From: Oribacterium sp. | GTDB lineage: Bacteria; Bacillota_A; Clostridia; Lachnospirales; Lachnospiraceae | Assembly: GCA_017940955.1 (NCBI GenBank) | Contig: JAGAXP010000227.1 | Location: 1-5,107 of the forward strand | Length of the DNA stretch: 5,107 nt | Direction of reading: 5' to 3' | Part shown: piece by piece, positions 1 to 5,107 of the stretch | Layout of the letters: each line of letters opens with the position of its first letter | Numbering within the stretch: position 1 is the stretch's first letter | Program-made: the position numbers and the translations under genes | Notes under the pieces: model-generated | What the model saw: only the letters and a program-made list of their open reading frames with translations | What the model was told of the DNA's origin: nothing | The model's database searches: none

Positions 1-78
1 AATATGTTGGATATGGTATACCTTGTTTGCTCAGATTTAAAGGTTCCACTTCCTAACAGAAAACTTAAAGCCGCATAA
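1..78 (+). CDS. Possible 3' end of an unidentified gene (partial)
   Basis: Frame 1 is open from the window edge for 25 codons and ends at TAA 76-78. The readable end is VCSDLKVPLPNRKLKAA. I do not recognise the family. The codon mix looks protein-like, and a dyad follows 15 bases after the stop, as is common after genes. However, 25 open codons can easily occur by chance and the start lies outside the window. It could equally be non-coding spacer. Confidence 0.3.
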   Translation, partial: NMLDMVYLVCSDLKVPLPNRKLKAA

Positions 79-92
79 TCAGCACAAATACT

Positions 93-126
93 GGGGTTGT
101 GGGTATTTTTTACCCACCATTACCCC
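93..126. other. Two-tier inverted repeat
   Basis: A perfect 7-bp stem (GTGGGTA 99-105 with TACCCAC 111-117) encloses a five-T loop. An outer GGGGT (93-97) can pair with ACCCC (122-126) across a small asymmetric bulge. No U-run follows on the plus strand; the next bases are TGAAGAGCC. On the minus strand the following bases are also not T-rich. It is therefore not a standard intrinsic terminator. It could be a weak terminator of the fragment at 1-78 or a protein-binding dyad. Confidence 0.35.
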
Positions 127-181
127 TGAAGAGCCAAAAATATATAGTATTTGTTTTTCAGTGTATCACCGTATTTTGATA

Positions 182-190
182 TGGTAAAAT
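182..190 (+). promoter_or_regulatory. Candidate extended -10 promoter for exoA
   Basis: TGG followed by TAAAAT (185-190) fits an extended -10 element (TGn then the hexamer). No good -35 hexamer sits 16-18 bp upstream, and other AT-rich hexamers such as TATAGT near 210-215 and TATAAG near 257 are also possible. The 250-base stretch before exoA holds no convincing gene, so its promoter should lie here, but the exact site is uncertain. Confidence 0.25.
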
Positions 191-329
191 AGCTATTATT
201 GATGCCCGGTATAGTATTGTCTGCAGCATGGTGTGAATGCGTAACATTAAATCGGGTATAAGTGACTAATGCTTTAAAAAATGAATATACACGTCCGCAG
301 TTCACAGCGGAGGAAACGGAGAATATGTC

Positions 330-1085
330 ATGAAAAAAATGATTTCATGGAATGTTAACGGCCTTCGTGCCGTTATGGGCAAGAACTTTATGGAAGACTT
401 TCAAAAACTTGATGCCGATATCTTCTGTCTTCAGGAGACGAAGCTTCAGGCCGGACAGATAGATTTGGACCTCCCGGGATATCACCAGTACTGGAACTAT
501 GCTGAGAAAAAGGGATATTCCGGCACGGCTCTTTTCACTAAAGAGGAGCCTCTGAATGTGACCTACGGCATGGGGATTCCGGAGCATGATATGGAAGGCC
601 GTGTCATAACGGCAGAGTTTCCGGACTATTATGTTCTCACTGTTTACGTTCCAAATTCCCAGGGCGAACTTAAGCGCCTTCCCTACAGAATGGAGTGGGA
701 GGACGCCTGGAGGAATTATATAAGCGAGCTTGATAAGAAGAAGCCGGTCATCTATTGCGGAGATCTCAATGTTGCCCACGAAGAGATAGACATTAAGAAT
801 CCGTCAACAAATCATCACAATGCAGGCTTCACTGACGAAGAGCGTGCCAAGTTCTCAAGGCTCCTTGCATCAGGCTTTGTCGACAGCTTCCGCATGCTTC
901 ATCCGGACGCCGTAGACGAGTACAGCTGGTGGTCCTACCGCATGAAGGCAAGAGAAAGAAATGTAGGCTGGCGTATAGACTACTTTGTTGTATCCGAAAA
1001 GCTGAAGGACAGGATCAAAGATGCAAGCATTCATCAGGAGATAATGGGATCGGATCATTGCCCGATAGAGCTCTGCATTGAATGA
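330..1085 (+). CDS. exoA: Exodeoxyribonuclease III (ExoA/XthA family AP endonuclease)
   Basis: This is a cytoplasmic base-excision-repair enzyme. It cleaves DNA 5' to abasic sites and removes damaged 3' termini, and the family also has 3'-5' exonuclease activity. The 251 residues span one complete endonuclease/exonuclease/phosphatase fold, the usual length for Gram-positive ExoA. All signature blocks are present: SWNVNGLRA (6-14, Asn8), CLQETK (33-38, metal-binding Glu36), GYSGTALF (62-69), VYVPNS (105-110, Tyr106), GDLNVAHEEID (144-154, Asp145 and Asn147), NAGFTDEER (164-172), WRIDYFVVS (214-222, Asp217) and GSDHCPI (240-246, Asp242-His243). The ATG at 330 is chosen because GGAG (318-321) lies 8 bases upstream and the protein begins right at the first beta-strand. 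An ATG at 325 in another frame stops at once. No key residue is missing and the gene appears functional. It seems monocistronic. Confidence 0.97.
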   Translation: MKKMISWNVNGLRAVMGKNFMEDFQKLDADIFCLQETKLQAGQIDLDLPGYHQYWNYAEKKGYSGTALFTKEEPLNVTYGMGIPEHDMEGRVITAEFPDYYVLTVYVPNSQGELKRLPYRMEWEDAWRNYISELDKKKPVIYCGDLNVAHEEIDIKNPSTNHHNAGFTDEERAKFSRLLASGFVDSFRMLHPDAVDEYSWWSYRMKARERNVGWRIDYFVVSEKLKDRIKDASIHQEIMGSDHCPIELCIE

Positions 1086-1099
1086 TCATACAAATGATC
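1084..1099 (+). other. Short hairpin overlapping the exoA stop codon
   Basis: GATCAT (1084-1089) and ATGATC (1094-1099) form a perfect 6-bp stem with an ACAA loop, starting inside the exoA TGA codon. It is not followed by a U-run (TAAAATTCG follows). It may help protect the 3' end of the exoA mRNA or be chance. The stronger hairpin at 1167-1203 is the better candidate for ending exoA transcription. Confidence 0.25.
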
Positions 1100-1158
1100 T
1101 AAAATTCGATAATGCTGATGAAATAGTTTTAAGAATGAAGTATTAAAGGCCTTTTCTC

Positions 1159-1203
1159 AAAAAAAAAGCCCGCGCAGGCGGATCATATCCACCTGCGCGG
1201 GCT
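1159..1203 (-). terminator. Intrinsic terminator, best fit on the minus strand
   Basis: A perfect 12-bp GC-rich stem pairs 1167-1178 with 1192-1203. It continues through one C/A position (1179/1191) into GGAT/ATCC (1180-1183/1187-1190) around a CAT loop. Read on the minus strand, the C/A mismatch becomes a G-U wobble, giving a continuous 17-bp stem followed by nine U (complement of the A-run 1159-1167). That is a textbook terminator, 15 nt past the stop of the PHP phosphatase remnant. Read on the plus strand it is followed only by GGUUAUUUA, but it may still slow polymerase leaving exoA, so it may be partly bidirectional. Confidence 0.85.
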
Positions 1204-1218
1204 GGTTATTTACGGTTA

Positions 1219-1395
1219 TTAATTTACAGTCTGTCCTTTGATCCCTGACTCTTTCAAAGCCTTAAGGAATGATTCTTTGTTCAGGCCGGCGATGAGTTCC
1301 TCCGGGAAATGAACCTCTTCAAGAAGTATCTTTGTTTGTTCAAAGTGGCCGATGAGGTTTGAGATATGAGCATCGGTTGCAACGGAAATGAAGCA
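1219..1395 (-). pseudogene. 3' remnant of a PHP-domain phosphatase (YcdX-like), 5'-truncated
   Basis: Read on the minus strand, about 58 codons end at TAA 1219-1221. They encode a recognisable C-terminus: FISVATDAHISNLIGHFEQT, then a segment with LLEEV, HFPEELI, NKESFLKAL and a short tail. The pattern S-(D/T)-DAH followed by IGxFExxxxLLEEVxFPEEL is characteristic of the PHP-domain hydrolases of the YcdX/histidinol-phosphatase-like group, in which the DAH segment supplies late metal-binding residues. The full family is roughly 240 residues, so about three quarters is missing, including the N-terminal metal-binding HxH motifs. Upstream of about 1395 the frame is open to 1491, but those residues are the antisense of the methyltransferase remnant and not PHP sequence. 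The fragment keeps its own terminator (1159-1203). It should be non-functional. The family assignment is from motif memory. Confidence 0.7.
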
Positions 1396-1668
1396 ACGAA
1401 GGCAGCTATCCGTGGCTACCGTGAGATAAATATGCAGGGAATCAAACTCGTTAAGGACGGTGGTTATCTCGCAACCTGCAGCTGCAGTCATTTCATGACC
1501 CCTGAGCTTTTCACAAAAACCATTGCCGAGGCAGCCAATTCAGTTCACCGCCGTCTCCGTCAGGTGGAGTACCGCACCCAGTGCTCAGACCACCCGATCC
1601 TTTGGGCGAAGGATGAAAACAGCTACTATTTGAAGTTCTATATTTTCCAGGTGTGTGATGAGAAATAG
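1390..1668 (+). pseudogene. 3' remnant of an RlmI-type 23S rRNA (cytosine-C5) methyltransferase
   Basis: About 92 codons, ending at TAG 1666-1668, match the C-terminal quarter of the class I SAM-dependent methyltransferases of the RlmI/YwbD family. Visible blocks are AAIRGYREIN, a GIKLVKDGGYLATCSCSHFM stretch with the family's conserved CSCSH, then LRQVEYRTQCSDHPILW and LKFYIFQV at the end. The intact family is near 390-400 residues, with an N-terminal PUA domain, an RNA-binding middle part and the SAM-binding motif I. All of those are absent here. An ATG at 1366 opens this frame, but residues before about 1390 are the antisense of the adjoining PHP remnant, and there is no ribosome binding site before it. 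The remnant is therefore probably untranslated and inactive. Intact family members methylate 23S rRNA. A functional copy would have to exist elsewhere in the genome. Confidence 0.8.
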
Positions 1669-1717
1669 GGCTGGGAAATGGCGATAATGCTTGATTTTAC
1701 GGGCTATTCATTATGAA

Positions 1718-1760
1718 AAGCCGCCGCGCTTTTGGATTATATCCATCAGCACGACGGCTT
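1718..1760. terminator. Hairpin terminator after the RlmI remnant
   Basis: The arms 1718-1729 and 1749-1760 pair over 12 positions with two C/A mismatches on the plus strand (1724/1754 and 1727/1751). An inner perfect stem TGGAT/ATCCA (1733-1737/1741-1745) has a TAT loop. On the minus strand both mismatches turn into wobble pairs, so the stem is stronger there, with a short U4 tail. On the plus strand a looser U-rich stretch (ATTTACTTTGGATTTTT) follows and the hairpin sits 50 bases after the methyltransferase stop. Direction is therefore uncertain and it may work both ways. Confidence 0.6.
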
Positions 1761-2193
1761 ATTTACTTTGGATTTTTGGTTTAGCTGCATACTAATTCAT
1801 TATGAGGATGAATTTTTATTATTTCACCTTAGGCAGCATCTCTTCCTGTACTTCTATTGACTCAGAAATGAAAAAACACGATTAGGGTCATAAAGACTTG
1901 CCGAAATCATTGACACAAAAATGAAATTTCTTGATTTGAGTCATTTTGACTGCGTAGATCAATGACCTAAATTAGACATATTACGTTATGAGTCATATAG
2001 GTGCACTTAACTAAATGACTTATTAAGAAGAATAATGTGTATGTGGTCAATCCGCAGAGGTTATTTTTGGGGTGTGGGCTGGTTTTTGTTTTACCGACTG
2101 ATTATTTCATCTGTTTATTAGTAACAGTTCGACTGTGCCCTCCGGCTCGAGCCTACATATAAACGGAAAAATATTCTATTCAACACAATTCTG
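1761..2193. other. Long intergenic stretch without a convincing gene
   Basis: No frame carries a plausible gene with a ribosome binding site. The main content is the near-periodic repeat array at 1858-2049. A short minus-strand frame ending at 1819-1821 reads ESIEVQEEMLPKVK and could be a decayed gene end. Further right are two small dyads: ACAGT-TCG-ACTGT (2124-2136) and the palindrome GGCTCGAGCC (2144-2153), a GC-rich spot in otherwise AT-rich DNA. I see no RNA gene, insertion sequence end or origin. Confidence 0.6.
1858..2049. repeat. Degenerate tandem array, period about 53 bp, with alternating TGAC/GTCA boxes
   Basis: TGAC occurs at 1858, 1911, 1963 and 2016 (steps of 53, 52 and 53). 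The inverted box GTCA ends at 1890, 1943, 1995 and 2049 (steps of 53, 52 and 54). This defines three full units (1858-1910, 1911-1962, 1963-2015) and a partial fourth. Units 1 and 2 agree at about 70% of positions by hand alignment; units 2 and 3 agree less, and the fourth is the most diverged. Each TGAC and the GTCA that follows it form a 33-bp imperfect dyad (for example TGACaCAAA with TTTGaGTCA in unit 2). Each GTCA and the next TGAC form another dyad of 27-28 bp. The array ends about 145 bp before the promoter of the GH13 operon. Function is unknown; clustered operator sites or a decayed repeat family are both possible. Confidence 0.7.
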
Positions 2194-2202
2194 TGATATA
2201 CT
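2194..2202 (+). promoter_or_regulatory. Extended -10 promoter of the GH13-like/glgB operon
   Basis: TGA followed by TATACT (2197-2202) matches the extended -10 pattern (TGn plus hexamer) of vegetative promoters. No good -35 hexamer lies 17 bp upstream, as is usual for extended -10 promoters. A start near 2209 would give a leader of about 65 nt. A second hexamer TATACA at 2212-2217 is an alternative. Assigned to this operon by position only. Confidence 0.5.
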
Positions 2203-2265
2203 TATTCCAACTATACATAAAAGTATTTATCCTATCCCTTATGTGCACCACCGGGAAACAAAAGT

Positions 2266-2270
2266 AAGGA
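2266..2270 (+). promoter_or_regulatory. Ribosome binding site of the GH13-like gene
   Basis: AAGGA is followed by four A residues and then the ATG at 2275. The spacing is on the short side but supports this start. The protein begins directly with the beta-rich N-terminal domain, and no in-frame upstream start with a better site is seen. Confidence 0.65.
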
Positions 2271-2274
2271 AAAA

Positions 2275-4287
2275 ATGTTTGGACTAAAAAAAGAAAATGA
2301 TCTGTATATATTTGAGGCAGTTGTTCATACTGAGCAGCTGTTCCTCAATCTATATGACGGTAACAGAAAGGTGCGACAGATAGCCTTTGATCCGTACCAA
2401 CGTATAGGTGATGTGTGGAAGCTTGAGATTTCGGAAGATATCTCAGGCTACAGCTATTGCTATGAGGCGGACGGAAATGTTTTTACCGATCCCAATGGAA
2501 CGGTATTTGAAGGAAGGAAAAAATTCGGTTACCTGAAGGATGGCACCAGGATACTTAAAACTCCTGTGGGGGAGGCTGTGGCCATGCCGGAGCTCAGTGA
2601 GGAGTGGATAAAGGACAGGCCTTTGGAAACCCCCTATGACGAAACTATCGTTTACCGCCTTCACGTAAGAGGCTTTACGGAGCACAGCTCCTCCGGACTC
2701 AAAAACGATGTCCGGGGTACCTTCCAGGGCATCATAGAAAAAATCACATATCTTAAGTCACTGGGGATAACGGCAGTGGAGCTGATGCCCGCCTATGAGT
2801 TTAATGAGGTCATGCTTCCGGATTACGGCAGTAAGAATCCATACCAGTCAGAGGTTAAGCCTACGGGGCGCATAAACTACTGGGGCTTTACAAAAGATGC
2901 CCTGCAGCTGGCGCCGAAATCAAGCTTTACCTCTGATCACAAAAACCCAAGAAACGAATTTCGAAAAATGGTGTATGAACTGCACCGTAACAATATAGAA
3001 GTGATCGTAGACCTGTACTTTACCTACGAGACATTACCGGACTATATCACCACAGTCATGCGGTACTGGCGCATCAGCTACCACGTGGACGGTATCCATA
3101 TGATAGGCTCCGCCCCCTACGGTGTCATCGCCCGGGATCCCTATCTCAGCAGGTTCAAGATCTGGGCTGACAGCTGGGAGGATCCGAACCGGGGAAACGA
3201 TAGGTACGGAGTGTACAGGCATGGGTCAACGAAGTATCTTGCGGATTACAATGACGGCTTCCAGAACGATATGCGCCGCGTCCTTAAGGGTGACGAAAGC
3301 ATGCTGCAGGCCCTTATGGGCAGGATCAGGTACAATCCTGAGGAGCGGGCGAACATTCAGTATATGGCCAATGTTTCCGGCATGAGTCTCTATGATGTCC
3401 TGAGCTACGACAGAAAGCATAACGAAGGAAACCATGAGGACAACCGGGACGGAACCAACATGAATTTCTCATGGAACTGCGGAGAGGAAGGCCAGACCCG
3501 GAAGAAATCCATAAAGCAGCTCCGAAGGAAGATGTGGAGGAATGCTTACCTCCTTCTCATGCTCAGCCAGGGAACTCCCCTTATAAACTCAGGTGATGAG
3601 TGCGGGCAGACGAGGCTCGGCAATAACAATGCCTACTGCCAGGACAATAACATTAACTGGTTTGACTGGCGGCTCCTTGAGAAGAACAAAGAGCTTTACG
3701 AATTCGCGAAATACATGATCGCCTTCAGGAAAAAGCACAAGGTGTTCCATCAGAGCCAGGCCCTCAGGATGCTGGATTACCGTTCAGTAGGCATTCCGGA
3801 TCTCAGCTTCCACGGCGAGAATGCCTGGAGGCCGGAGATGGAAAACTTCAGGCGACAGCTTGGCGCCATGTATGCAGGAGAGTATGCCTCGGATGACACC
3901 TTCCTGGTGCTTTACAATTTCCATTGGGAGAAACACGACTTCATGCCGCCACATGCTCCGGTAGGTAAAAAGTGGGCGGTGGCCATAGATACTTCAAAGG
4001 ATGACATTAACGGCATTTACCCTGAGGGGGAGGAGCCGGAGCTGGATACCTCGGATATCATCGTGGAACCCAGAGCCATAGTTGTCCTTAAAGCGGTCAA
4101 GGATAAGAGCTATAAGCCAAAGAGGAAGAGAGCTGTCCGGAAGAAAAAGAAAGTGACTGACAACGTAAAAACAGCTGAAGGCAGTCCGGAAGCCCCGCTG
4201 CAGGAATCTAAAGCTGAAGGCAGTCCGGAAACCTCGTTTCCGGAATCAGCAGCTGAACGCAGCCCCAAAATCCCGGCGCCGGAATAA
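2275..4287 (+). CDS. GlgX/isoamylase-like GH13 protein lacking all catalytic residues (predicted pseudoenzyme)
   Basis: A 670-residue cytoplasmic protein with no signal peptide. Residues 1-90 form a degenerate CBM48-like beta-sandwich. The GH13 barrel runs from about 120 to 490, followed by a C-terminal beta domain to about 607. GlgX-type landmarks are clear: YRLHVRGFT (127-135), YWGFTKDALQLAPKSSF (202-218), SYDRKHNEGN then EDNRDGTNMNFSWNCG (377-403), and GTPLINSGDECGQTRLGNNN (433-452). Yet the catalytic regions are altered. Region I has DLYFTYE (246-252) where DVVYNHT is expected. Region II has VDGIHMIGS (271-279), with Ile277 at the nucleophile Asp. Region III has ADSW (298-301), with Asp for the acid/base Glu. 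Region IV has NVSGMSL (366-372) for the CHDGFTL type, losing the His-Asp pair. Only 26 residues separate regions I and II, so domain B is missing. Debranching or amylase activity is thus unlikely; glycogen binding or support of GlgB is inferred. The frame is long and undisrupted within the fold, which argues for selection. The basic tail and odd stop are listed separately. Confidence 0.9.
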   Translation: MFGLKKENDLYIFEAVVHTEQLFLNLYDGNRKVRQIAFDPYQRIGDVWKLEISEDISGYSYCYEADGNVFTDPNGTVFEGRKKFGYLKDGTRILKTPVGEAVAMPELSEEWIKDRPLETPYDETIVYRLHVRGFTEHSSSGLKNDVRGTFQGIIEKITYLKSLGITAVELMPAYEFNEVMLPDYGSKNPYQSEVKPTGRINYWGFTKDALQLAPKSSFTSDHKNPRNEFRKMVYELHRNNIEVIVDLYFTYETLPDYITTVMRYWRISYHVDGIHMIGSAPYGVIARDPYLSRFKIWADSWEDPNRGNDRYGVYRHGSTKYLADYNDGFQNDMRRVLKGDESMLQALMGRIRYNPEERANIQYMANVSGMSLYDVLSYDRKHNEGNHEDNRDGTNMNFSWNCGEEGQTRKKSIKQLRRKMWRNAYLLLMLSQGTPLINSGDECGQTRLGNNNAYCQDNNINWFDWRLLEKNKELYEFAKYMIAFRKKHKVFHQSQALRMLDYRSVGIPDLSFHGENAWRPEMENFRRQLGAMYAGEYASDDTFLVLYNFHWEKHDFMPPHAPVGKKWAVAIDTSKDDINGIYPEGEEPELDTSDIIVEPRAIVVLKAVKDKSYKPKRKRAVRKKKKVTDNVKTAEGSPEAPLQESKAEGSPETSFPESAAERSPKIPAPE

Positions 4288-4290
4288 AAA
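4102..4290 (+). repeat. Basic low-complexity tail with three 39-bp (13-residue) repeats
   Basis: After the C-terminal beta domain, residues 609-627 are very rich in Lys and Arg (KPKRKRAVRKKKK). Three 39-bp repeats follow at 4174-4212, 4213-4251 and 4252-4290. They read AEGSPEAPLQESK, AEGSPETSFPESA and AERSPKIPAPE-stop-K. A basic patch followed by an acidic, Pro/Ser-rich disordered segment suggests an interaction or polyanion-binding tail rather than part of the enzyme fold. Such slippage-prone repeats commonly vary in copy number between strains. Confidence 0.8.
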
Positions 4291-4383
4291 GCTGATACAG
4301 ATGCCGCGGCATCTTCAGAAGATACAATTAGTACAGAGAAAAAGAATGAAGCAATAGAAGGCGCTTCTGTGAAGAAACGCTAA
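4288..4383 (+). other. In-frame continuation of the GH13-like tail beyond the TAA stop
   Basis: After TAA 4285-4287 the same frame stays open for 31 codons to TAA 4381-4383. It reads KADTDAAASSEDTIS and onward to ASVKKR, with the same Ala/Ser/Thr/Glu/Lys-rich composition as the tail before it. The second stop overlaps the glgB Shine-Dalgarno, the normal arrangement for consecutive genes in an operon. This suggests that the ancestral protein had 702 residues and that 4285-4287 is a recent nonsense change. Confidence 0.65.
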
Positions 4384-4388
4384 GGAGG
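4382..4388 (+). promoter_or_regulatory. Strong Shine-Dalgarno of glgB
   Basis: AAGGAGG with a 5-base spacer to the ATG at 4394 fixes the glgB start. It overlaps the distal in-frame TAA of the preceding reading frame, so ribosomes finishing an uninterrupted upstream frame would terminate on top of it. With the present stop at 4285 that coupling is weakened. Confidence 0.85.
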
Positions 4389-4393
4389 AACTC

Positions 4394-5107
4394 ATGACCG
4401 AAAAATTATATGACGTAATGAATTGGGCAGATGTAGAAGATGTAACTTATGCGGAAACATCAGATCCCAAACACATTCTTGGAGCGCACGTTGTTCCTGA
4501 GGGTCTTTTGATCCAGGCCTTTATTCCTACGGCAAAAGACATCGAAGTAAAGATCCAGGGAGACAGGGTTTATCAGATGGAGCTTGCGGATGAGGAAGGC
4601 TTCTACGCATTGCTGGTTCCCATGAAAAAGAAGTGGGAGAAGGAGCTTCCCAAGTATTCCTATATCATTACCTATGATAATGACACCACCACCGAGTCTG
4701 AGGATCCCTATTCATTTGCTTCCATCTATACCGAAGAGGATATCAAGAAGTATCAGGCCGGAATATGGTACGATATTTATAACAAAATGGGAGCACACCC
4801 CATCACCATCGACGGTGTAAAGGGCGTAGTATTTTCAGTTTGGGCACCTAATGCAGAACGCGTATCGGTTGTCGGAGACTTCAACCTCTGGGACGGACGA
4901 CGCAACATGATGCAGAGACTGGGAAATTCAGGCGTATTTGAGACTTTCATCCCTCATCTCACTCCGGGAACAGTTTATAAGTATGAGATCAAGTGCCGCC
5001 ACAAGGAGCCTTTCCTGAAGACTGACCCTTATGCAAACGCAATGGAGATGCGTCCCAACAATGCCTCCGTTGTAGCAGATCTTGAGAAATTTACCTGGAC
5101 AGATAAG
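4394..5107 (+). CDS. glgB: 1,4-alpha-glucan branching enzyme, N-terminal part (runs off the window)
   Basis: GlgB (EC 2.4.1.18) moves a cut alpha-1,4-glucan segment onto an alpha-1,6 position, making the branch points of glycogen in the cytoplasm. The 238 codons present cover two N-terminal beta-sandwich domains. The first (about 18-115) is the bacterial GlgB N1 domain, with DPKHILGAH (24-32) and AFIPTAKDIEVK (42-53). The second (about 125-232) is CBM48, with VFSVWAPNAERVSVVGDFN (146-164), LWDGRRNMM (165-173), PGTVYKYEI (191-199) and TDPYAN (210-215). It stops at WTDK, just before the catalytic GH13 barrel, so no active-site residue can be checked here. The start is fixed by a strong Shine-Dalgarno. 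It lies 106 bases after the GH13-like stop in the same direction with no terminator between, so the two are probably co-transcribed. Confidence 0.95.
   Translation, partial: MTEKLYDVMNWADVEDVTYAETSDPKHILGAHVVPEGLLIQAFIPTAKDIEVKIQGDRVYQMELADEEGFYALLVPMKKKWEKELPKYSYIITYDNDTTTESEDPYSFASIYTEEDIKKYQAGIWYDIYNKMGAHPITIDGVKGVVFSVWAPNAERVSVVGDFNLWDGRRNMMQRLGNSGVFETFIPHLTPGTVYKYEIKCRHKEPFLKTDPYANAMEMRPNNASVVADLEKFTWTDK

Follow-up and report, generated by a model that had tools for sequence, protein, structure and literature searches.

A stretch of DNA of 5,107 nucleotides from the rumen bacterium Oribacterium sp. (contig JAGAXP010000227.1, positions 1 to 5,107; the window hereafter) carries, at positions 2275 to 4287 of the forward strand, a gene for a GlgX/isoamylase-like protein in which every catalytic position of the fold is replaced. 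This protein is a dead isoamylase kept by selection, and dead GlgX-like proteins of this kind occur in most of the genomes sampled from its bacterial family. The reading that we prefer, with a probability of about 0.5, is that of a retired isoamylase-type debranching enzyme, no longer able to cleave alpha-1,6 bonds, which would still grip alpha-glucan as a non-catalytic glycogen-binding accessory protein.

A catalytic centre lost across a family

The gene is an open frame of 670 amino acids with AAGGAAAAAATG 5' of its start. Its features around the former active site are the following.

2275..4287, + strand: gene of the non-catalytic GlgX/isoamylase-like protein, 670 amino acids (open reading frame, profile and structure comparison)
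3025..3027, + strand: codon of Tyr251 (region I); His in all 36 intact GlgX rows
3028..3060, + strand: deletion in the beta3-alpha3 loop, which has 10 residues versus 54 in intact GlgX
3097..3099, + strand: codon of His275 (region II Arg in intact GlgX); His in 92 and Arg in 12 of 126 members
3103..3105, + strand: codon of Ile277 (nucleophile Asp in intact GlgX); Asp kept in none of 126 members
3169..3171, + strand: codon of Asp299 (acid/base Glu in intact GlgX), from the alignment
3373..3378, + strand: codons of Val367-Ser368 (region IV His-Asp in intact GlgX), from the alignment

In NCBIfam, the nearest model is that of GlgX (TIGR02100, an equivalog), which the protein matches at 296 bits and thus below the curated cut-off of 640.9; in Pfam, the alpha-amylase domain is recovered in fragments only and CBM48 is absent from the matches. 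A structure model of the window protein (mean predicted local distance difference test score, pLDDT, of 86.7; predicted template modelling score of 0.87) falls below a pLDDT of 50 only in residues 632-670 and in two short stretches. Its best matches among solved structures are plant ISA1, then GlgX and TreX, with plant ISA2 chains also among the matches. The predicted fold has the isoamylase arrangement of an N-terminal beta domain, a (beta/alpha)8 barrel and a C-terminal beta domain, and the same fold is predicted for a distant member from Lachnoanaerobaculum (L034, 37% identity, pLDDT 89.1).

The six catalytic positions are His, Arg, Asp, Glu, His and Asp in all 36 rows of an intact GlgX alignment, which represent 35 different genes since one gene of genome G001 (Oribacterium sp. 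KHPX15) was entered twice (30 from genomes of the same family, four annotated ones including that of E. coli K-12, one from G001 and one from G004). None of the six is identical in the window protein, which has Tyr251, His275, Ile277, Asp299, Val367 and Ser368 at these places, exactly the replacements that an earlier note on this DNA had read by eye. The centre of the barrel was judged from this alignment and from the secondary structure (DSSP line) of the model, whose strands E242-249, E273-278, E295-298 and E359-363 are consistent with the placement of the catalytic positions. Besides, the segment from region I to the next helix counts 10 residues in the window protein versus 54 in all 36 intact rows. 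The residue in place of the acid/base Glu, Asp299, is still acidic, which slightly qualifies the catalytic loss. With the triad, the Arg and the His gone and a beta3-alpha3 loop 44 residues shorter, the protein would almost certainly be incapable of Koshland-type catalysis.

These features are common to the 126 members that we compared (the window protein, 45 named loci and 80 genome regions hand-picked from the strongest matches listed), a set that was left unthinned and in which weak members are under-represented. The short segment after region I (9-10 residues) is present in all of them. Asp at the nucleophile position is found in none, the commonest residue being Asn (49/126), while the acid/base Glu is kept in 13, the stabiliser Asp in 22 and both of these in two. 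Thinning at 90% identity leaves 114 members, again with no nucleophile Asp and with Trp400, a residue considered below, in 112. A protein search gave at least 7547 matches at E <= 0.001 among the 7996 scored candidates of a capped set, intact GlgX not being separated out; the 120 database matches listed and used for residue counts, which may overlap the 126 members, have the nucleophile Asp in none, the acid/base Glu in six and the stabiliser Asp in one. In 12 further matches (nine weak ones and three from the class sample described below), the segment is 10 residues long in all, the triad occurs in none and the nucleophile-position Asp is missing in 11. None of the outcomes that the earlier note had set against its own proposal was encountered; in particular, the 126, 120 and 12 sequences include no orthologue with an intact triad. 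Eight positions are newly conserved in the family (114, 215, 270, 388, 432, 501, 509 and 527); they were considered as candidates for substitute catalytic residues, but none sits at an end of strand 3, 4, 5 or 7 in the DSSP line.

Genomes were surveyed with a diagnostic model of barrel fragment 226-345. Members score 117 bits or more with their best piece, and other GH13 proteins, intact GlgX included, do not exceed 53, limits that were set on the sequences collected up to that stage. Of the 299 genomes from the same family, here the family of G001, the genome that bears locus L001, 235 contain the fragment (E <= 1e-15). The weakest matches reach 61 bits, and the nine weak matches that were checked all turned out to be members with a short loop and no triad. 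A class sample contains the fragment in 8 of 291 genomes, of which five belong to the family sample as well; true members are carried by the remaining three (G481, G522 and G542), and 9 of 21 relatives of G481 match as well. According to their record titles, the 45 named loci come from Oribacterium, Lachnoanaerobaculum, Lachnospiraceae, Choladousia, Eubacterium, Ruminococcus and Clostridiales, the closest three, at 94, 95 and 97% identity, being Oribacterium. Where a name is given, source annotations call the members alpha-amylase, alpha-amylase family glycosyl hydrolase, isoamylase or hypothetical protein, and in keyword literature searches we noticed no description of a non-catalytic GlgX/isoamylase-like family of Lachnospiraceae.

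The family forms one lineage. In quick trees without bootstrap of 70 rows (45 members, the first of the 78 that remain once sequences are thinned at 62% identity; 22 GlgX; three pullulanase-like GH13 proteins as outgroup), all 45 members group in one clade beside GlgX, with a value of 98 in the Shimodaira-Hasegawa-like approximate likelihood-ratio test (SH-aLRT). Without the catalytic columns the member clade holds (SH-aLRT 99), but the GlgX rows no longer form one group; E. coli GlgX is a long branch in the trees. For the window gene, the ratio of nonsynonymous to synonymous substitution rates (dN/dS) is 0.058, 0.125 and 0.059 versus L001, L002 and L003, the higher value versus L002 being increased by the disordered tail. 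Versus L004, L006 and L008 the ratio is 0.045, 0.047 and 0.116, values that are less sure with dS above 2, and dS is saturated versus L005, L007, L009 and L010. Within residues 240-340, dN is 0.008-0.030 versus L001-L003, the altered face being conserved within Oribacterium. The tree and dN/dS, each computed on its sample, indicate that a single change very probably preceded the divergence of the sampled members and was followed by purifying selection. The earlier note had spoken of a selected pseudoenzyme, a view that is well supported by the missing triad in the three sequence sets, the single clade of 45 members, the low dN/dS and the presence of the fragment in 235 of 299 genomes.

The retained border lobe

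Loss of the active site is accompanied by an uneven conservation of the remaining fold. Among 198 positions kept at 90% or more in intact GlgX, the family keeps 92 at 80% or more and 46 at 97% or more. At the 80% level, retention is high in residues 374-465 (38/45), 116-215 (24/34) and 466-612 (9/10), and poor in 250-320 (5/40), 358-373 (3/10), 321-357 (3/16), 216-249 (2/12) and 1-115 (8/31). The GlgX signatures to which the earlier note had drawn attention are indeed present and belong to the best-kept block.

3394..3669, + strand: kept segment, residues 374-465, in which DNRDGTNMNFSWNCG and GDECGQTRLGNNN lie; 38 of its 45 GlgX-conserved positions are retained
3274..3276, + strand: codon of Arg334, equivalent to maize ISA1 R504 (su1-NC; PMC12510319); Arg in 126/126 members and 115/120 database matches (Lys in five)
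3421..3423, + strand: codon of Asn383, equivalent to maize ISA1 N561 (su1-SW; PMC12510319); Asn in 126/126 members and 120/120 database matches
3472..3474, + strand: codon of Trp400, equivalent to maize ISA1 W578 (su1-Ref; PMC12510319); Trp in 124/126 members, 120/120 database matches and 11/12 further matches
3622..3624, + strand: codon of Asn450, equivalent to maize ISA1 N628 (su1-Bn2; PMC12510319); Asn in 126/126 members and 119/120 database matches
4105..4284, + strand: C-terminal tail, Lys/Arg-rich in its first part; predicted disordered from residue ~621 (pLDDT block means 36-54) and fast evolving

In maize ISA1, the four residues R504, N561, W578 and N628, which are altered in su1 alleles, make up a "border lobe" in which W578 contacts glucan at the secondary site SBS2, as stated in PMC12510319. 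They were mapped onto the window protein through the rice ISA1 chain with an offset of 11; no other offset within the range tested reproduces all four letters. If residues were drawn randomly from the GlgX-conserved positions, four such kept residues would be expected with a probability of roughly 0.003, a rough value given that neighbouring positions are not independent.

Binding of glycogen or of a partner without cutting is the best inference from the kept SBS2 and border-lobe residues, in line with the function proposed in the earlier note. More precisely, the retention of these residues suggests that alpha-glucan is probably bound via the border lobe and SBS2, centred on Trp400. A role in glycogen structure or turnover, for which we see an even chance, could follow: the protein may keep chains in place for the branching enzyme or for another amylase, or it may set chain packing by analogy with the non-catalytic ISA functions proposed in maize.

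Concerning the tail, the frame of the gene remains open for 31 codons past its stop codon (positions 4285-4383). The tail of the relative L001 is longer and ends in much the same residues, tail length being strain-variable.

Gene surroundings, glycogen pathway and rival explanations

The window contains two neighbouring genes that recur in relatives.

330..1085, + strand: exoA, exodeoxyribonuclease III; upstream neighbour recurring in relatives
4394..5107, + strand: start of glgB (branching enzyme; GlgB_N and CBM48); next gene downstream, 106 bases on, running past the window end

Just past exoA, positions 1167-1203 can form a strong hairpin of 17 pairs, of which 12 are G-C, accompanied on the minus strand by a run of T. 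About 1.2 kb separates exoA from the GlgX-like gene, and the two may well not share a transcript. Positions 1390-1668 hold the remnant of an rlmI-like 23S rRNA methyltransferase gene, which keeps only the last 92 residues of the 406-residue protein of relatives and is 100% identical to L006 and L007 across the retained part. Rfam at gathering thresholds gave no match anywhere in the window.

Across the fetched regions of 125 loci (gene names being taken from one representative per cluster, and those of ExoA and GlgB from likeness to the window's genes), an ABC-F ATPase gene is found in 76, ExoA in 39, TraX in 38, DUF5662 in 35, DUF1292 in 30 and LuxS in 29. The ABC-F ATPase gene lies directly upstream on the same strand in 30 loci and exoA in 21 (less than 50 bp away in 13), while the TraX gene is directly downstream in all 38 loci having it. 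In ten loci with short members of 562-603 amino acids (L154-L163), the gene directly upstream encodes a periplasmic sugar-binding protein (Peripla_BP_4 type, one representative tested), at a distance of 19-27 bp in seven. Some members (P0063, P0066, P0071, P0109, L108 and L109; 4/120 database matches and 2/125 loci) are fused at their C-terminus to an O6-methylguanine-DNA methyltransferase.

As for the glycogen pathway, the counts of co-occurrence carry no correction for kinship or genome completeness. GlgX (E <= 1e-120) is found in 98 of the 299 genomes and is commoner among carriers of the diagnostic fragment (92/235) than among non-carriers (6/64; Fisher p 2e-6, likewise uncorrected). An intact GlgX gene even lies ~2 kb from the GlgX-like gene in at least two genomes (G139 and G132). 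A GlgX match is missing in 143 of the 235 carriers. The first 40 of these by handle number were checked for other debranchers: type I pullulanase is matched in 13 (12 above the cut-off) and GH133 in nine. When the 26 genomes with neither match are taken together with Oribacterium sp. C9 (G002), GlgB and genes with a Pfam alpha-amylase domain are present in 27 of 27. Five such alpha-amylase-domain proteins were inspected; four are neopullulanase-like (435-446 amino acids; assignment by PDB comparison for one protein), while the fifth is similar to maltodextrin glucosidase. Many carriers probably depend on other GH13 enzymes to cleave branches.

Several observations weigh against a glycogen-binding accessory protein. 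The border lobe is also needed for ISA1 catalysis according to the same authors (PMC12510319), so that it is not purely "non-catalytic", and its residues could be kept for folding alone. Nor are they invariant, as the five lysines at Arg334 among the 120 database matches and an Ala at Trp400 in one of the 12 further matches (L245) illustrate. As regards the lost triad itself, in the short member L239 (genome G011) an Asp does align with the nucleophile, but Arg is replaced by Val and the stabiliser by Thr, and the acid/base position falls in a gap. The gene glgB is directly downstream in nine of 125 loci, all within the ten closest (L001-L010); elsewhere, the usual neighbours are ABC-F ATPase, ExoA, TraX and DUF5662 genes, none of them obviously connected with glycogen. 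Glycogen synthase, found in 289 of the 299 genomes, is shared by most carriers (231/235) and non-carriers (58/64) alike, and its co-occurrence therefore says little. Finally, 26 of the 40 GlgX-less carriers checked have no match to type I pullulanase or GH133, so that a debranching partner is not obvious.

Some of these observations would fit other functions. A shift out of glycogen metabolism to a stress- or DNA-repair-linked role, perhaps as a sensor of sugar or energy, would agree with the frequent ABC-F ATPase and exoA genes nearby and with the methyltransferase fusions; however, synteny conserved within one family need not mean a common function, the fusions are few and the glucan-site residues are kept, which makes this role unlikely. 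A scaffold or partner role, based on protein-protein contact instead of glucan binding and directed at GlgB or a small neopullulanase-like GH13 enzyme, appears rather unlikely. The adjacency of glgB in the window and in nine other loci and the presence of both kinds of candidate partner in genomes without the usual debranchers speak in its favour, but this adjacency is confined to the closest relatives and the N-terminal domain is much less conserved than the border lobe. The closest known precedent is that of an obligate regulatory subunit, which would form a hetero-oligomer with GlgX and tune it as ISA2 does for ISA1. The fold is the same as that of ISA1/ISA2, and GlgX is enriched among carriers and at times close by; yet 143 of 235 carriers lack a GlgX match, and 26 of the 40 of these that were checked also lack type I pullulanase and GH133 matches. 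An obligate partnership with GlgX is therefore not supported, and a role as such a subunit looks quite unlikely.

Those same 26 genomes, in which glgB is present, together with the conserved altered face within Oribacterium, could also point to a new enzyme whose barrel performs a different chemistry by other residues. We regard this as improbable, given that the former catalytic positions are filled by many different residues across the family and that the few newly conserved positions avoid the strand ends named above. As to a decaying gene or an assembly artefact, the open stretch past the stop codon and the gene remnant upstream might suggest one, but the chance is practically nil: the relatives refute it, and a lone decaying window gene was rejected on the same features in 126 members of many genomes and on a dN/dS far below 1.

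Comparison with known systems

GH13-type domains without enzymatic function have a precedent in animals, where the GH13-like heavy chains 4F2hc and rBAT are membrane proteins of amino-acid transporters. Among bacterial and archaeal proteins, the nearest relatives are the GlgX/TreX debranching enzymes (TIGR02100), which we take to be GH13_11. The window protein has their fold, domain order and GlgX signatures in common with them and differs by the replaced triad, Arg and His, the shortened beta3-alpha3 loop and a score of 296 versus 640.9 bits. The assignment of GlgX/TreX to GH13_11 is also made in PMC12516185.

The existence of such a family bears on how genomes are interpreted. Additional glgX copies are counted as debranching enzymes, for instance a 648-residue glgX2 listed for Butyrivibrio hungatei MB2003 (PMC5716241) and two glgX homologues listed for Blautia obeum (PMC10395257), genes that may belong to this family, and predictions of starch or glycogen breakdown may be wrong as a result. 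Besides, why plants select a non-catalytic isoamylase is described as not understood in PMC12510319. A second case, in bacteria with glycogen genes and including some cultured strains, would allow this question to be tested outside plants.

Plant ISA2 is the system that the bacterial family resembles most in principle. Both have an isoamylase fold in which the nucleophile and most conserved catalytic residues are varied, a criterion taken from PMC12510319, where the ISA2 nucleophile is reported as varied in every ISA2 examined and the protein as an ancient one that selection has maintained. At its N-terminus ISA2 carries an additional beta-sandwich domain, and of the two glucan sites it keeps SBS1 but not SBS2 (same source). 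In contrast, residue 1 of the bacterial model aligns with rice ISA1 residue 103 with no domain before it, and the bacterial family, unlike ISA2, keeps the SBS2 Trp (124/126), a comparison that covers SBS2 only. The bacterial family is a clade beside bacterial GlgX in a tree built without ISA2, and the plant and bacterial distributions suggest that the two would be independent in origin. The protein is thus ISA2-like as a non-catalytic isoamylase, yet it is not classed as ISA2, since it departs from ISA2 in two features that were tested. We tentatively consider, as a possibility short of an even chance, that this widespread protein of a major gut and rumen family is an independent bacterial counterpart of ISA2, a dead isoamylase that would hold chains, uncut, at its border-lobe site and thereby control glycogen architecture or physical state. 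The bacterial protein would then have lost its catalytic centre but retained SBS2, in contrast to ISA2, in which SBS2 was lost and SBS1 retained.
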